A stretch of 64,000 nucleotides of DNA from Flavobacteriaceae bacterium. GTDB lineage: Bacteria > Bacteroidota > Bacteroidia > Flavobacteriales > Flavobacteriaceae. Below the pieces are notes generated by a model. It saw nothing but the letters and a program-made list of their open reading frames with translations. It did not search any database and was not told the origin of the DNA. Numbering within the stretch: the first letter of the stretch is position 1; every line of letters begins with the position of its first letter. A program made the position numbers and the translations under genes. This document shows positions 3,097-9,965 of the stretch, piece by piece. The stretch is taken from positions 1-64,000 of the forward strand of contig JANQRC010000064.1 in assembly GCA_028284745.1 (NCBI GenBank), read 5' to 3'.

Positions 3097-4242
3097 TTGA
3101 AGCTTTCCGAGAAATACAGATCAACCCGCACTCGCACAGAAGAACTCTGCAAGCCGCTGAAAACTGAGGATTATGTGGTGCAGCCTGCTGTTTTTGCAAG
3201 TCCGCCAAAGTGGCATCTTGCCCATACCACTTGGTTTTTTGAAGAATTCATATTAAGACCACAACGAGATTACAAGGTGTTTGACGAAAAGTTCTGTTTC
3301 TTGTTCAACAGTTATTACAACAACGCTGGAGACCGGATCTTTAGAGCTGACAGAGGCAACATCACACGACCCGATGTTTCGGAAGTGTACGCCTATCGTG
3401 CATACGTTGATAGGCAGATGGCCAAACTGTTAAAAGAAGAATTGACAACTACTGTAGAGTCGTTGATTGTTCTAGGCATCAATCATGAGCAACAACACCA
3501 AGAGTTGTTGCTTACCGATCTGAAGCACACTTTGGCAAATAACCCTACATTTCCGATGTATCAACAAGGTGCAAACCTGGTGTCTGACAAAAATGGCAGC
3601 ACCGGCTTCATATCGGTCGACGAGGGTGTTTATGAGATCGGCCACAAGAGCGATGATTTTTGTTACGACAACGAATTAGGAGCTCATAAGGTGTTCATTC
3701 ACGATTTTGATATCAGTGAGTCCTTGATCACCAATGGCGAATACATCGACTTTATTGATGATGGTGGTTACAACAATTTCAATCTCTGGCACGATCCCGG
3801 ATGGTCTTGGGTACAAGCGCATCATGTGAATAGCCCTTTATACTGGCATCTTATAGATGACGAATGGCATTATTATACGTTGGCTGGTCTGAAAAGGGTC
3901 GATGCGGAAGCAATACTTTCGCACGTTGGCTTCTACGAAGCATTTGCCTTTGCTGAATGGAGAGGCATGCGATTGCCCACTGAATTCGAGTGGGAGGTAG
4001 CAGCCGATAAATTCGATTGGGGCAAACGTTGGGAATGGACCTATAGTGCTTATCTTCCCTACCCAAACTTTACAAAGGCTGCCGGAGCCATTGGGGAATA
4101 CAATGGCAAATTCATGATAAATCAAATGGTATTGCGTGGCGCATCAATAGCTACTGCCGAAGACCATAGCAGAAAAACGTACCGTAACTTTTTTCACCCC
4201 CAAGAGCGGTGGCAGTTTACGGGCATTCGATTAGCGAAATGA
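3097..4242 (+). CDS. egtB: EgtB-type sulfoxide synthase (ergothioneine biosynthesis), TTG start
   Basis: Non-haem iron enzyme that joins the imidazole C2 of hercynine to a thiol donor, forming a sulfoxide intermediate of ergothioneine. Residues 10-140 form a DinB-like bundle carrying the iron ligands: His43 in WHLAHTTWFFEE and the His130/His134 pair in HEQQHQELL. A formylglycine-generating-enzyme (FGE)-sulfatase domain covers about 165-381 (EWRGMRLPTEFEWE near residue 290, VLRGAS and TGIRLA at the end). No in-frame ATG or GTG lies between the stop at 3088-3090 and the conserved region, so TTG at 3097 is the likely start and matches the usual family N-terminus. One base separates its stop from egtD. 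Neither egtA nor egtC is adjacent. Confidence 0.9.
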   Translation: MKLSEKYRSTRTRTEELCKPLKTEDYVVQPAVFASPPKWHLAHTTWFFEEFILRPQRDYKVFDEKFCFLFNSYYNNAGDRIFRADRGNITRPDVSEVYAYRAYVDRQMAKLLKEELTTTVESLIVLGINHEQQHQELLLTDLKHTLANNPTFPMYQQGANLVSDKNGSTGFISVDEGVYEIGHKSDDFCYDNELGAHKVFIHDFDISESLITNGEYIDFIDDGGYNNFNLWHDPGWSWVQAHHVNSPLYWHLIDDEWHYYTLAGLKRVDAEAILSHVGFYEAFAFAEWRGMRLPTEFEWEVAADKFDWGKRWEWTYSAYLPYPNFTKAAGAIGEYNGKFMINQMVLRGASIATAEDHSRKTYRNFFHPQERWQFTGIRLAK

Positions 4243-4243
4243 T

Positions 4244-5179
4244 ATGACCGAACAATTCAAGACCGATGTGGATCTGGGCCTTTCGGCCTTTCCCAAACAC
4301 CTCTCCTCTAAATACTTCTATGATGACATTGGTAGTGAGATCTTTCGTAAGATCATGGAAATGCCTGAGTATTATCTCACTGATGCCGAATTCGAGATCA
4401 TGTCCCTGCATGGCAAGCAGATATTACGGTCGTTAGATTTCAAAAGTGAGTTTGATGTCATAGAGTTAGGAGCTGGAGACGGTGTAAAGACTCTTCAGCT
4501 GCTGAGCAACTTCAAAGCCGTTCGCGAGGATTTCACTTTCGTGCCCATAGACATCTCTCAAAAGGCCATAGATGTGCTAGAAGAAAACGTTCTAAAGGAA
4601 CTTCCTGGGCTGGAAGTGAAGTCGCAACAAGGCGATTATTTTGACGTGCTGGAACAATTTCCTCCAGATACTCCCAATTTGATCCTGTTCCTTGGAAGCA
4701 ATATTGGTAACTATCAGCTAGAAAAAGCCAAGAGCTTGCTTACACATTTATATGCACTCATGAAAGAAGGTGACAAGTTGTTGATAGGTTTCGACCTACA
4801 AAAGAATCCCATCACGGTGAGACAAGCCTATGATGACCCGCACGGCATCACCAAAGCCTTTAACATGAATCTATTGCATCGCATCAACAAAGAACTGGAT
4901 GCAGACTTCAGACTGGACAAATTCGACTTCTATTGCCATTACAACCCGTTAAATGGCGAAGTTAAAAGTTATCTGGTAAGCCTAACCAAGCAAGATGTAC
5001 ATATCGGAGCGCTCAAAAAGACATTCCGTTTTAATCACAACGAACTGATATGGACAGAACTCTCTAAAAAATTCACCATCAGAGAAGTACAAGAGCTATG
5101 TGAGTCTACAGGCTTCGATTTGAAAGCAAATTTCTTAGACTGCAAACATTACTTTGTCGATAGTTTGTGGTGCAAGTGA
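4244..5179 (+). CDS. egtD: L-histidine N-alpha-methyltransferase
   Basis: EgtD trimethylates histidine with S-adenosylmethionine to give hercynine, the substrate of EgtB. The 311-residue length fits the family. The N-terminus has the diagnostic SSKYFYDDIGSEIFRKI and MPEYYLTDAE stretches at about residues 21-49. The SAM-binding motif VIELGAGDGVKT is at 72-83. ILFLGSNIGNY and GFDLQKNP follow in the middle of the protein. It lies one base after the egtB stop, so the two are surely co-transcribed. The DUF2260-type methyltransferase fold is typical. The C-terminus ends in the family pattern CKHYFVDSLW. Confidence 0.93.
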   Translation: MTEQFKTDVDLGLSAFPKHLSSKYFYDDIGSEIFRKIMEMPEYYLTDAEFEIMSLHGKQILRSLDFKSEFDVIELGAGDGVKTLQLLSNFKAVREDFTFVPIDISQKAIDVLEENVLKELPGLEVKSQQGDYFDVLEQFPPDTPNLILFLGSNIGNYQLEKAKSLLTHLYALMKEGDKLLIGFDLQKNPITVRQAYDDPHGITKAFNMNLLHRINKELDADFRLDKFDFYCHYNPLNGEVKSYLVSLTKQDVHIGALKKTFRFNHNELIWTELSKKFTIREVQELCESTGFDLKANFLDCKHYFVDSLWCK

Positions 5180-5353
5180 CCGGTTGGGCTTGCTTAATTT
5201 TGATCGATCGCTTTTACACGGGCAAGCACAATAACATCGTCATGTTTCTGAAGAATAGAGTCAACATTCACATGAATGAATTTTAACAGGGTGATAACAC
5301 TTATATTTCATACCTTTCTGATGCAAACTTTGCTTACTAAAACCAATGTTCAT

Positions 5354-7504
5354 ATGAAAACTTTACTTAGCCGCAAGGTGCTATTGATAGTAACCTCATT
5401 AGCTGTTAGCACATACAGTTGCAAAGATGCGGCTACCACAAAAAACACTATGACCGATAACGATTTACTCAAAGAATGGGCAGGACCTTATGGGGGTGTA
5501 CCTGCTTTTGATAGAATGAAGGTGGAAGATGTCAAAGAAGCCGTAGAAACTGGCATGACTTCAAGCCTGGAAGAGATCGATGCCATTGCGAACAATACAG
5601 CATCGCCCACATTCGCAAACACTATTGAAGAAATGGAGCGGTCTGGCAGCGAGTTGGATCGTGTCTTTACCTATTATGGGATCCTTAGGTCTAACATGTC
5701 TACCCCAGAATTTAGAGAGATCCAGGCAGAATTAGCACCAAAATTGTCCGAGTACAGCTCGAAGATATTGCAGAACGAAAAGCTCTTTCAGCATATAAAA
5801 GCCATTTACGAAGCTTCTAAAAAGGACCCCCTTCCTGCCGATCAGCAACGCGTAGTTGAGCTTACCTATGATCGCTTTGCCATGAACGGTGCAGATCTAG
5901 ATGCAGACAAGAAGAAGCGCTATGCAGCGATAAACAAAGAGCTTTCTTCACTCTACACAGACTTTTCTAATAATGTATTGCATGATGAAGAGAACTACAT
6001 CACGTATTTGACCAAAGAACAGTTAAGTGGCCTTTCGGAAGCATATATCAAATCAGCGGCCAAGATCGCTGCAGACAACGGGCAAGAAGGCAAATATGCC
6101 GTTACGAACACACGTTCTTCCATGGACCCATTCCTCACATACTCTGACGAACGGGAGCTGCGAAAACAAGTATGGAACAACTATTATTCGCGCGGTGACA
6201 ACGGAGATGAATACGATAACAACGAGATCATCGCCAAGATCTTGAAACTTCGACGCGAACGTGTAGAACTGTTAGGATATAAAAATTACGCAGAATGGCG
6301 CCTGCAAGACCGCATGGCAAAAACTCCTGAAAATGCCATGCAATTGATGCAAGCCGTTTGGCCAGCAGCCATCGCTCGGGTGGCCGAAGAAGTCACTGAC
6401 ATGCAAGCGATTGCCGACAAGGAAGGTGCAAACATCACTATAGAGCCTTGGGACTATCGCTATTACGCTGAAAAGGTACGCAAGGCTAAATATGACCTGG
6501 ACAGCGACGAGGTGAAACAATATTTGCAATTGGACAAACTCCGTGAAGCCATGTTCTATGTGGCAGGACGCCTATTTAATTACGATTTTGAGCCTGTTCC
6601 CGAAGGTAGTGTGCCCGTTTTTCATGAAGACGTAAAAGTCTGGGAGGTCACCGACAAAGATTCGGGCCAACACATTGGCCTTTGGTATCTAGACCCTTAT
6701 GCCCGGCAAGGAAAACGCTCAGGAGCTTGGGCTACGACCTATCGTAGCCATACCACCTTTGATGGAAAGGAAACCGTATTGGCCTCTAACAATTCTAATT
6801 TTGTAAAGCCCGCTCCTGGCGAACCTGTATTGGTCTCTTGGGATGATGCCACGACCTTCTTTCACGAATTTGGCCATGCCTTGCATTTCTTTGCTTCGAA
6901 TGTGAAGTATCCGACATTGAACGGTGGTGTTCGCGATTATACCGAATTCCAGTCGCAACTGCTAGAACGTTGGTTGTCTACTGACGAAGTGATCGATCAG
7001 TTTTTAGCACATCATGAAACAGGCAAGCCAATGCCAAAAGAGCTAGTGGCCAAAGTTAAGAATGCGGCCACTTTCAATCAGGGATTCGGCACTACTGAAT
7101 ATTTGGCCTCTGCATTGATGGACATGAAACTGCATTTGGCAGACCCATCAAATATCGATATCGACACCTTTGAGCGTGAGACATTAGCTGAATTGAAAAT
7201 GCCAAAGGAACTTCCGATGCGTCATCGCACACCGCACTTTGGCCATGTGTTTTCTGGCGAAGGCTATGCAACTGCATATTATGGATACATGTGGGCAGAT
7301 GTACTTACAAGCGATGCTGCAGAAGCTTTTAAAGAAGCACCGGATGGATTCTACGATAAGGCAATGGCTGATAGATTGGTGAAATATCTATTCGCTCCTA
7401 GAAATTCTATAGACCCAGCTGAAGCCTATAGAATGTTTAGAGGGCGAAATGCTAACATTGAGGCCCTGATGCGTGACCGCGGTTTCCCGATTCCTAAGAA
7501 TTAA
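5354..7504 (+). CDS. M3-family zinc metallopeptidase (peptidyl-dipeptidase Dcp-like), lipoprotein
   Basis: A 716-residue thimet-family peptidase, expected to cleave oligopeptides in the periplasm. The zinc motif is FHEFGHALH at about residue 503, with the downstream Glu ligand expected in the RDYTEFQSQLLERWL stretch. The frame stays open up to 5276, but the ATG at 5354 begins a proper signal peptide (MKTLLSRKVLLIVTSLAVS) ending in a lipobox-like TYSC, so it is the likely start. The HEXXH lies in a C-terminal catalytic domain that ends with the usual FRGRNANIEALMRDRGF. Monocistronic; the next gene is convergent. Dcp versus oligopeptidase A specificity cannot be decided from sequence. Confidence 0.9.
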   Translation: MKTLLSRKVLLIVTSLAVSTYSCKDAATTKNTMTDNDLLKEWAGPYGGVPAFDRMKVEDVKEAVETGMTSSLEEIDAIANNTASPTFANTIEEMERSGSELDRVFTYYGILRSNMSTPEFREIQAELAPKLSEYSSKILQNEKLFQHIKAIYEASKKDPLPADQQRVVELTYDRFAMNGADLDADKKKRYAAINKELSSLYTDFSNNVLHDEENYITYLTKEQLSGLSEAYIKSAAKIAADNGQEGKYAVTNTRSSMDPFLTYSDERELRKQVWNNYYSRGDNGDEYDNNEIIAKILKLRRERVELLGYKNYAEWRLQDRMAKTPENAMQLMQAVWPAAIARVAEEVTDMQAIADKEGANITIEPWDYRYYAEKVRKAKYDLDSDEVKQYLQLDKLREAMFYVAGRLFNYDFEPVPEGSVPVFHEDVKVWEVTDKDSGQHIGLWYLDPYARQGKRSGAWATTYRSHTTFDGKETVLASNNSNFVKPAPGEPVLVSWDDATTFFHEFGHALHFFASNVKYPTLNGGVRDYTEFQSQLLERWLSTDEVIDQFLAHHETGKPMPKELVAKVKNAATFNQGFGTTEYLASALMDMKLHLADPSNIDIDTFERETLAELKMPKELPMRHRTPHFGHVFSGEGYATAYYGYMWADVLTSDAAEAFKEAPDGFYDKAMADRLVKYLFAPRNSIDPAEAYRMFRGRNANIEALMRDRGFPIPKN

Positions 7505-7568
7505 TGTAAAATGAGCATATGTGACAAAGCGAGGGCTCTGCATGGGCTCTTGTTTTTTCATAGAACTA

Positions 7569-8140
7569 CTAGTATCCCTTACGATCAGCTGATCGGAATG
7601 ATCTGGCCTTAGATGTATTGATGAAGTACACACCCGTTAGTAGAACTATGGCGGCAACGATCGATTGTAAAGTTATTTCTTCATTCAAAAAATACCACCC
7701 TAGGATCAAGGCGATGATCGGGTTCACATACGTTGAAGTGGCCACTTTTTCGGGTGACACCTTTCGCAATAAAAAATTGAAGGATGTAAAAGCCAGGATA
7801 CTTCCAAACACAATCAATAATACCATTACCCAGATCACTTTGCTAGACCATTGAGTCGGGCTAATCCAAGGTTCGCTCAAAATACCACTCAGTACAATAA
7901 GCATGGTGCCTCCTGTCATCATTTGGTATCCGGTATTGACAAAAGAGCTTTTAGGCAGGTCGGCAGTACCTACAAATAGGCTGCCATATCCCCAACTTAG
8001 CATACATACAAAGATCATGAGCACACCTACAATAGCATACTCTCTTGTGATCAGTTCTTTTTGGCTTACTAGCAGATAAACACCTATGGCACCTAAGATC
8101 ACTCCTATTACGGACATTTTCTTGATCGGTTTACCCTGCA
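7569..8140 (-). pseudogene. EamA/DMT-family transporter, 5' half deleted
   Basis: The reading frame retains about 190 residues corresponding to the end of the first EamA repeat and the whole second repeat: membrane segments equivalent to TM5 (VIGVILGAIGVYLLV) through TM10 (IVAAIVLLTGVYFIN), including the conserved YVNPIIALILGWYFLNE. Family members have ten segments and about 300 residues, so TM1-4 are missing. Upstream of about 8140 the open frame continues to 8342, but that stretch is antisense to the remnant of another transporter and is not EamA sequence. An ATG at 8150-8148 could in principle still start a six-segment fragment. I infer a 5'-truncated pseudogene. Confidence 0.7.
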
Positions 8141-8315
8141 GAATACGCATGTTGGAGATTTCAAAGAAATTGTGTCGAATGCTCCACGCGCTGACCTCAA
8201 CATCTTTGGGATGGACGAAAATCTGGCTTTTGATTTTGTAAGGCAAATGACTGCCCACACACAAAGCTCGTGTCTGTTTGTAAAGGATTCTGGCCATGAG
8301 AGTATACTGGCCTGA
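8140..8315 (+). pseudogene. C-terminal remnant of an SLC12-like (Na-K-Cl cotransporter family) permease
   Basis: The plus strand from about 8140 to the TGA at 8313-8315 encodes some 55 residues with no start codon. It includes GDFKEIVSNAPRADLNIFGM and SSCLFVKDSGHESILA at the very C-terminus. Bacteroidota Na-K-Cl cotransporter-like permeases typically end in a cytosolic tail with APxADLNIFG and a terminal xSCLFVxDSGxExxLA pattern; this assignment comes from family recall. The rest of that gene (about 700 residues) is absent, since the sequence to the left is the EamA remnant on the other strand. The surviving stop lies 14 bp from the convergent lipoprotein gene, as expected for an intact 3' end. 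Confidence 0.65.
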
Positions 8316-8328
8316 CAAAAGGCTTGGT

Positions 8329-9039
8329 CTATTTTGCTGCAAACGCTTTGTAGAAGTATTCAGCCTTCAAATATTTTTTATTATTCGCATCGTCTATAAA
8401 GTAGCTCTTTCGGTGTGCATTCAACAATAAACCTGTTGTGCCATCGAACGATACGTTTTCGATCAAACTGATATTGCCATTGTGTGTCACCTGTGCACCA
8501 ACGAGCTTGTGATCGCAGGTGTCGAAATAATAAACCCAGGGGTCTTTTAGTTCGCCATAGTTTACTCCTATAGCTTCAGTCTTACGACCATTGATCGTTC
8601 TTTTGCCCAAGTAGGTGAAAGTGGCATTTGTGTCTTTCAACAGAAATGGCTGAAACACCACGTATTCGGCTGCATTTATCAAATTTCCTGCTTTTGTGAG
8701 TTCTTTTTCATTCACAACGGCAGAATCATTGACCAACTTGTCGACCTTTCCATGTCGAAGTGCAACTAGGATGGTGTCCTGGTCTTTTCGCCAACGCACA
8801 GAAATACTCCTTTCGGGCACGAATTGAAAGTTCTGTTCTTGATCTGTTCTCGATGCAACGTTCCCTAGCGAATCATAGAGGATGGTTGTTTTAGTGAAGT
8901 CTATACTTTTCAATTGCTGATAGGTTTCCCAACCTCCATGAGCGCTTATGGATCTTGAGATGACCTGCTCAGGGATAGGCTCTTCGTGGGCACAACCCGC
9001 TAAAAAAGCAACGAAAAGAAACATTGGAGAGATTCTCAT
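8329..9039 (-). CDS. Lipoprotein of unknown function (DUF6503-like)
   Basis: A 236-residue lipoprotein: signal segment MRISPMFLFVAFLAG followed by Cys16. The mature part begins with an IPEQVISRSISAHGGWETYQQLKSIDF pattern seen in a group of Bacteroidota proteins with a LolA/LppX-like fold (DUF6503 by recall, not verified). Several short beta strands with aromatic residues follow, ending LKAEYFYKAFAAK. It begins immediately after the GNAT stop codon with no spacer, so it is the last gene of the five-gene leftward run from 10773. The role is unknown; a lipid-binding or envelope function is inferred from the fold type only. Confidence 0.7.
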   Translation of the reverse strand: MRISPMFLFVAFLAGCAHEEPIPEQVISRSISAHGGWETYQQLKSIDFTKTTILYDSLGNVASRTDQEQNFQFVPERSISVRWRKDQDTILVALRHGKVDKLVNDSAVVNEKELTKAGNLINAAEYVVFQPFLLKDTNATFTYLGKRTINGRKTEAIGVNYGELKDPWVYYFDTCDHKLVGAQVTHNGNISLIENVSFDGTTGLLLNAHRKSYFIDDANNKKYLKAEYFYKAFAAK

Positions 9040-9498
9040 TCAATAAATATCTAAAAAAAATCGCTCTTTAGGCTTCGAAGAAGCACCTATGCGTTTATAG
9101 AACTTGATGGCTCTGGTATTAAAGTCGGGGGTTTGCCATTGCACATGCGAGCAACCCATCTTCTTCCCTTCTTCTTGAATTCGCCTGACCAACTTCTCTC
9201 CTATTCTTGATCCGCGTGCATACTCTTTCAGGTAAAGGCAATCCATGTAGATGTATTCATCGGCATCCCAAGTAGCGTATTGCTTCATATAGGTGACATA
9301 CCCAACGAGCACACCTTTAATGTCTGCTACTAGGCAATATAGCTTTGGCTTTTCAGAAAAAAGGGCGCTGGCCAACCTTTGCCTCTTCTCCTTGCTTTCA
9401 TAGGTCACTTCTTCATAGTTTGCATGCGCTTCGCATAGTGCCACTATTTGGTCGATGTCTGTTGGTATGGCATGTCGTATGTTTGGTTGTATCTTCAT
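9040..9498 (-). CDS. GNAT-family N-acetyltransferase
   Basis: A 152-residue acetyl-CoA-dependent N-acetyltransferase. The core GNAT features are present: YIYMDCLYLKEYARGSRIGEKLV at about residues 84-106 (beta4 and the acetyl-CoA pyrophosphate loop, here RGSRIG), then a helix, VQWQTPDFNTRAIKFYKRIGA, and a short C-terminal strand. This arrangement resembles diamine or small-amine acetyltransferases. The substrate cannot be told. It overlaps the upstream gene by four bases (ATGA) and abuts the downstream lipoprotein, which implies translational coupling. Confidence 0.82.
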   Translation of the reverse strand: MKIQPNIRHAIPTDIDQIVALCEAHANYEEVTYESKEKRQRLASALFSEKPKLYCLVADIKGVLVGYVTYMKQYATWDADEYIYMDCLYLKEYARGSRIGEKLVRRIQEEGKKMGCSHVQWQTPDFNTRAIKFYKRIGASSKPKERFFLDIY

Positions 9499-9965
9499 TT
9501 TACCATAACATCGTTAAAGTATGCGTTAAGATCCGGGTTGGCAGGTTTTCTCAATATGTTCTCTATCCAAGACCTTCGTTCATGAGCAAAGACCTCTAAC
9601 TCCCATATGCAGACAAGCGCACTCGGATGGTACGGTGATGAGATAAGTTCTTCAGGTGCCTCGAGATCTGTGAATCGCACCTCTGTTTGTATCATTTCTC
9701 CACCAGTCCACCAATTGAGCAGCGTCAGCACGCCTTCCCTGGCCTCATGCACGATAAGAAAAGCTGCTTTGTGGGTGGGTATCTTCGATCGCTTTGCATT
9801 TTGCAGCCATTCAGGTAGTTTGGTCACAATATTTTCTAGCACAACAGAAGACTCAAATGTGTCTCTGTTAGTGATCGTGTAGACCTTCACCTCCCAATCA
9901 TCGACTTCGATCAAATGCTGAAAGTCGATCTTTCGATCTTCATAGTGTTCAAATGTATAACTCAT
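9495..9965 (-). CDS. Conserved hypothetical protein, soluble
   Basis: A 156-residue protein without signal peptide or membrane segment. Visible features are an acidic, Asp/Glu-rich N-terminus, a central THKAAFLIVHEAREGVLTLLNWW stretch containing paired Trp residues, and a C-terminal VCIWELEVFAHERRSWIENIL. I do not recognise the family. Both ends are tightly packed with neighbours: four-base overlaps with the DUF1272 gene upstream and the GNAT gene downstream. It therefore belongs to the same transcription unit and probably the same (unknown) process. Confidence 0.6.
   Translation of the reverse strand: MSYTFEHYEDRKIDFQHLIEVDDWEVKVYTITNRDTFESSVVLENIVTKLPEWLQNAKRSKIPTHKAAFLIVHEAREGVLTLLNWWTGGEMIQTEVRFTDLEAPEELISSPYHPSALVCIWELEVFAHERRSWIENILRKPANPDLNAYFNDVMVK

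Follow-up and report, generated by a model that had tools for sequence, protein, structure and literature searches.

An open reading frame of 774 bp on the minus strand (7569-8342; 257 codons) lies between an M3 peptidase gene and a lipoprotein-like gene in a draft genome of the Flavobacteriaceae. A preliminary description of this DNA regarded the frame, then measured at 773 bp, as a chimera of a transporter gene fragment and an antisense stretch of a second transporter gene. This raises the question of whether the two pieces are genuine tails of transporter genes and, if so, of where they meet and how they came to be joined. The window analyzed here, i.e. the whole stretch of 64,000 nucleotides, belongs to contig 14 of a 2.82-Mb draft genome (73 contigs, 97.78% complete). 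This genome is the sole member of its genus in our comparison set of 397 sampled Flavobacteriaceae genomes, in which it is itself included. The features around the frame are listed in Table 1. The 5' end of the frame briefly overlaps the 3' end of the lipoprotein-like gene, on the same strand and in a different frame. Another gene near the lipoprotein-like gene, encoding 156 residues (9495-9965), also has no Pfam match.

Table 1. Position and strand, in the window, of the two gene remnants, their junction and the neighboring genes.
Feature	Position	Strand	Basis or remark
M3 peptidase gene, intact, left neighbor	5276-7504	+	PF01432, E = 7.1e-99
EamA (drug/metabolite) transporter remnant, last 193 codons and stop	7569-8150	-	PF00892 and alignment to relatives
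Junction	8148-8150		CAT fits the Met codon of EamA leftward and the His codon of the cotransporter rightward
Prokaryotic cation-chloride cotransporter (CCC, SLC12-like) remnant, last 55 codons and stop	8148-8315	+	PF21554 and alignment
Non-EamA part of the 774-bp leftward frame	8151-8342	-	Mostly antisense of the CCC remnant
Lipoprotein-like gene, intact, right neighbor, convergent with the CCC remnant	8329-9039	-	No Pfam match

The piece read leftward was identified as an EamA transporter lacking its 5' part. In a Pfam search, positions 7572-8150 (minus strand) matched the EamA profile with a score of 76.5 bits (E = 3.1e-21), over positions 2-135 of the 135 in the profile. In a relative of 305 residues, the remnant aligns with residues 114-304 (69% identity), and the best Flavobacteriaceae relatives are 69-73% identical to it in their C-terminal part. 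About 63% of the gene is therefore left, the first ~114 codons being missing. A full-length member of this family has about 300 residues and two EamA repeats; the remnant contains a single EamA stretch. The frame reached at least 280 residues in all 104 of the other genomes carrying the gene. The missing 5' part was not found elsewhere in the genome, in which the 305-residue query recovered only residues 114-304, at the junction, and paralogues; the three other EamA matches are distant paralogues, with 24-26% identity. No solved structure matched the remnant at E ≤ 0.01.

The piece read rightward was likewise recognized as the end of an SLC12-like cotransporter gene. Positions 8133-8312 (plus strand) matched PF21554 with a score of 69.7 bits (E = 3.2e-19) over positions 79-132 of 132, so that only the second half of this profile, entitled "Prokaryotic cation-chloride cotransporter, C-terminal domain, 2nd", was covered. 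The coding residues of the remnant, excluding the stop codon, occupy 8148-8312. The aligned tail covers residues 671-730 of the 730 in a relative (75% identity), and it also matched a solved structure, PDB 3g40, described as "Na-K-Cl cotransporter" (E = 3.7e-5). About 675 of the ~730 codons are missing from this gene, including the membrane transport part, and a search of the genome with the 730-residue query found only residues 671-730, at the junction, residues 1-670 being unmatched. Both genes are probably dead as full-length transporters.

The position of the junction was determined from the two alignments. The EamA residues M-R-I-L-Q fit downward from 8150, and the Met codon at 8150 corresponds to residue 115 of the 305-residue relative; when the leftward frame is followed beyond this Met codon, the resemblance to EamA relatives disappears. 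On the other strand, the CCC consensus L-T-E-V-H fits from its H (8148-8150), the window having Q-N-T rather than T-E-V at 8139-8147. The extension of EamA homology to Met 8150, the misfit of the CCC at 8142-8147 (N-T rather than E-V) and its fit from 8148 therefore place the junction at 8148-8150. This lies within the interval 8120-8160 originally proposed for the breakpoint, about 10 bp to the right of the position of about 8140 estimated there. The chimeric nature of the leftward frame was borne out, as were the identities of both pieces, including the assignment of the 55 residues to a cotransporter C-terminus. The codon at 8148-8150 is ATG in 45 of 46 EamA relatives; of the 38 CCC hits, three have no codon at this position, and CAT occurs in 17 of the other 35. 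A microhomology of 3 bp (CAT), or of 4 bp with the preceding G (GCAT), is possible at the junction, but the relatives are too distant to reveal which bases were lost.

The arrangement of the intact homologues was then compared among relatives. The CCC tail is present in 35 of the 397 genomes, our own included (E ≤ 0.001). It belongs to a frame of 731-789 residues in 33 of the 34 other genomes, and a contig end interrupts the gene in the remaining one (G063); the fused arrangement was therefore not seen in any relative for either gene. This EamA gene, counted in CCC-bearing genomes at E ≤ 1e-30, is also present in 23 of the 34. In 15 of these 23 genomes, the two genes are no more than 30 kb apart, the number expected by chance being about 0.4 by our own arithmetic (60 kb of ~3.7 Mb). 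All 15 pairs are on opposite strands and none is codirectional, a rule for which we know of no reason; loci with the opposite-strand arrangement include L064-L066, L070, L071, L081, L084, L092 and L093. Seven pairs are divergent, with gaps of 2.7-24.8 kb, and eight are convergent, with gaps of 0.9-20.5 kb. In the remaining eight genomes, the two genes are on different contigs (four genomes) or 74 kb to 2.3 Mb apart (four genomes). The EamA and CCC genes are thus part of a loosely conserved neighborhood, in which the divergent pair is a real state. In genome G063, a second, distant CCC paralogue (~34% identity) adjoins the EamA gene (L064, 2336-4549).

The flanking genes of the window were not recovered in these neighborhoods. 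Neither the M3 peptidase nor the lipoprotein-like gene lies beside either transporter gene in any of 71 related loci or of 10 further loci, two of which were centered on the lipoprotein gene, and the ancestral order M3 peptidase-EamA-CCC-lipoprotein that had been predicted for relatives was thus left unconfirmed. Relatives of the lipoprotein are present in 37 of the 397 genomes, our own included (E ≤ 1e-15), and it does not adjoin the CCC gene in any of the six others that contain both (in G171, for example, they are on one contig, ~260 kb apart). The sole flank shared among the loci read is an egtB-egtD-like pair near the EamA gene of Ulvibacter antarcticus (L101). In the window, these adjoining genes, EgtB-like (DinB_2 and FGE-sulfatase domains) and EgtD-like (PF10017), occupy 3097-5179, to the left of the remnant; in U. 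antarcticus, they occupy 4607-6689 of L101, and the EamA gene is ~3 kb away. The Egt names are presumptive, as we assigned them from the domains. In some relatives, what we take by eye to be a DUF4251-like gene lies between the EamA and CCC genes; a Pfam family search for DUF4251 gave no match in our own genome, an absence that fits a deletion but proves little.

Taken together, these data make it likely that a single deletion between the EamA gene and a divergent CCC gene removed both 5' parts. The conserved proximity of the two genes on opposite strands, their divergent arrangement in seven relatives and their full length in relatives make one deletion the best history. The 5' sides of the remnants face each other, the geometry expected after a deletion between divergent genes, and this also supports a deletion. 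Such an event would have eliminated the first ~114 EamA codons, the first ~675 CCC codons and everything between them. Its size would be at least ~2.4 kb by our own arithmetic on these codons; judging from the gaps in relatives, it would more likely be ~5-10 kb and have included several other genes, though only a few. The ends may have been joined by illegitimate recombination at the short match (CAT, perhaps GCAT). A single deletion had already been suggested and remains likely, but the idea that it crossed no more than a shared promoter region is not supported: none of the seven divergent pairs is directly adjacent, and the shared-promoter picture is therefore too simple. Several observations count against a single deletion. 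A simple deletion could not yield the geometry of the junction from a convergent pair, the state of eight of the 15 pairs within 30 kb; no intact pair with the flanks of the window was found in the 71 related and 10 further loci; and no divergent pair with the two genes side by side was encountered. One event, with the mechanism, size and recency proposed here, is what we infer as the best history, the ancestral order of the flanks being unconfirmed in relatives.

Neither remnant contains a stop or frameshift. Hits with less than 50% identity and identical sequences were left out of the comparison of conserved columns, in which none of the 53 invariant columns was changed (EamA, 0/36 against 43 other sequences; CCC tail, 0/17 against 35 others), and only one of the 107 near-invariant columns was changed (EamA, 1/78; CCC, 0/29). 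If the remnants are unselected, the lack of changes in ~119 nonsynonymous sites would, by our own arithmetic, correspond to less than ~2.5% neutral divergence. The lack of decay in either remnant implies that the event is recent or that the joint is an assembly or strain artefact. The deletion is probably recent, although the pattern from which this is deduced would be equally expected of an artefact. The junction might indeed have been created during library preparation or assembly, or belong to a minority strain variant followed by the assembler, the genes of the population being intact. The draft state of the genome, with its 73 contigs and incomplete sequence, and the presence of this joint in no relative are compatible with such an origin. 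However, the assembly would also have had to lose the missing 5' parts, both of which are absent, and at 97.78% completeness it is unlikely that assembly gaps hide both by chance. Moreover, a 2.5-kb query around the junction matched only itself in the genome, so there is no notable repeat to drive a misjoin, and repeat-driven misassembly was rejected on these grounds. The remaining long frames also tile the window with no large gaps between them. We therefore consider an artefact unlikely.

A series of rearrangements appears still less probable. The two genes would initially have been far apart or convergent, their tails having been brought together by an inversion or translocation with subsequent losses. 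The occurrence of both convergent and divergent pairs in relatives (8/15 and 7/15), the eight of 23 genomes in which a long distance or a contig boundary separates the genes, and the flanking genes of the window, unlike those of all relatives examined, are consistent with this history. Nevertheless, it requires more steps, both 5' parts must still be lost, and the divergent state in seven relatives means that one deletion suffices. A local inversion was rejected, as it would place a 5' part at each junction, whereas the geometry here is wrong for this and the 5' parts are absent.

It is very improbable that the EamA remnant is a working half-size transporter, which would start from the ATG at 8150 that the junction happens to leave at its end and consist of a complete second EamA repeat. 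This repeat spans positions 2-135 of the 135-position profile, has no stops and has one changed column among 78 that are near-invariant. Two-repeat DMT proteins are thought to descend from small four-helix drug transporters, to which the half-size reading likens the remnant, and there is a very slim chance that the one-repeat protein could work as a dimer, the ancient duplication having been reversed by the deletion. However, the remnant has lost the first repeat together with the original start of the gene, the short form occurs in none of the 104 other genomes, and the CCC tail, probably nonfunctional by itself, shows no decay either, making recency the more likely reason for the preservation. 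A search of 7450-9100 for sigma-70-like promoters yielded no site, which also counts against this reading. The pattern TTTG-N17-23-TANNTTTG, which we take to be the Bacteroidetes-type promoter pattern, has three matches in the window, no more than expected by chance and none near the remnant.

The locus thus provides a clean example of two opposed genes disabled by what was probably one deletion, and its general implications are modest: the general view of gene loss is unchanged by this locus alone. It also carries a warning for annotation, as the 257-codon frame would be called an EamA transporter even though a quarter of it is mostly antisense of another gene. The portion of the literature available to our search contained nothing on such a double truncation, the matches concerning eukaryotic cotransporters and deletions in eukaryotes. 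With the EamA/drug-metabolite transporter family (PF00892), the leftward remnant shares one complete EamA domain at the 69-73% identity noted above, and it differs in lacking the first EamA repeat and the gene start. The rightward remnant corresponds to the last part of the C-terminal domain in prokaryotic CCC proteins (PF21554; PDB 3g40), including the terminal SSCLFVKDSGHESILA, but comprises only 55 of ~730 residues and lacks the membrane part. The event itself is ordinary pseudogene formation and gene loss, of an unusually clean kind. It shares with bacterial deletion pseudogenes the two truncated neighbors, the absence of the other parts from the genome and the clean joint, and it does not differ from them in kind: here, two opposed genes have each lost the 5' end, with no sign of later decay.
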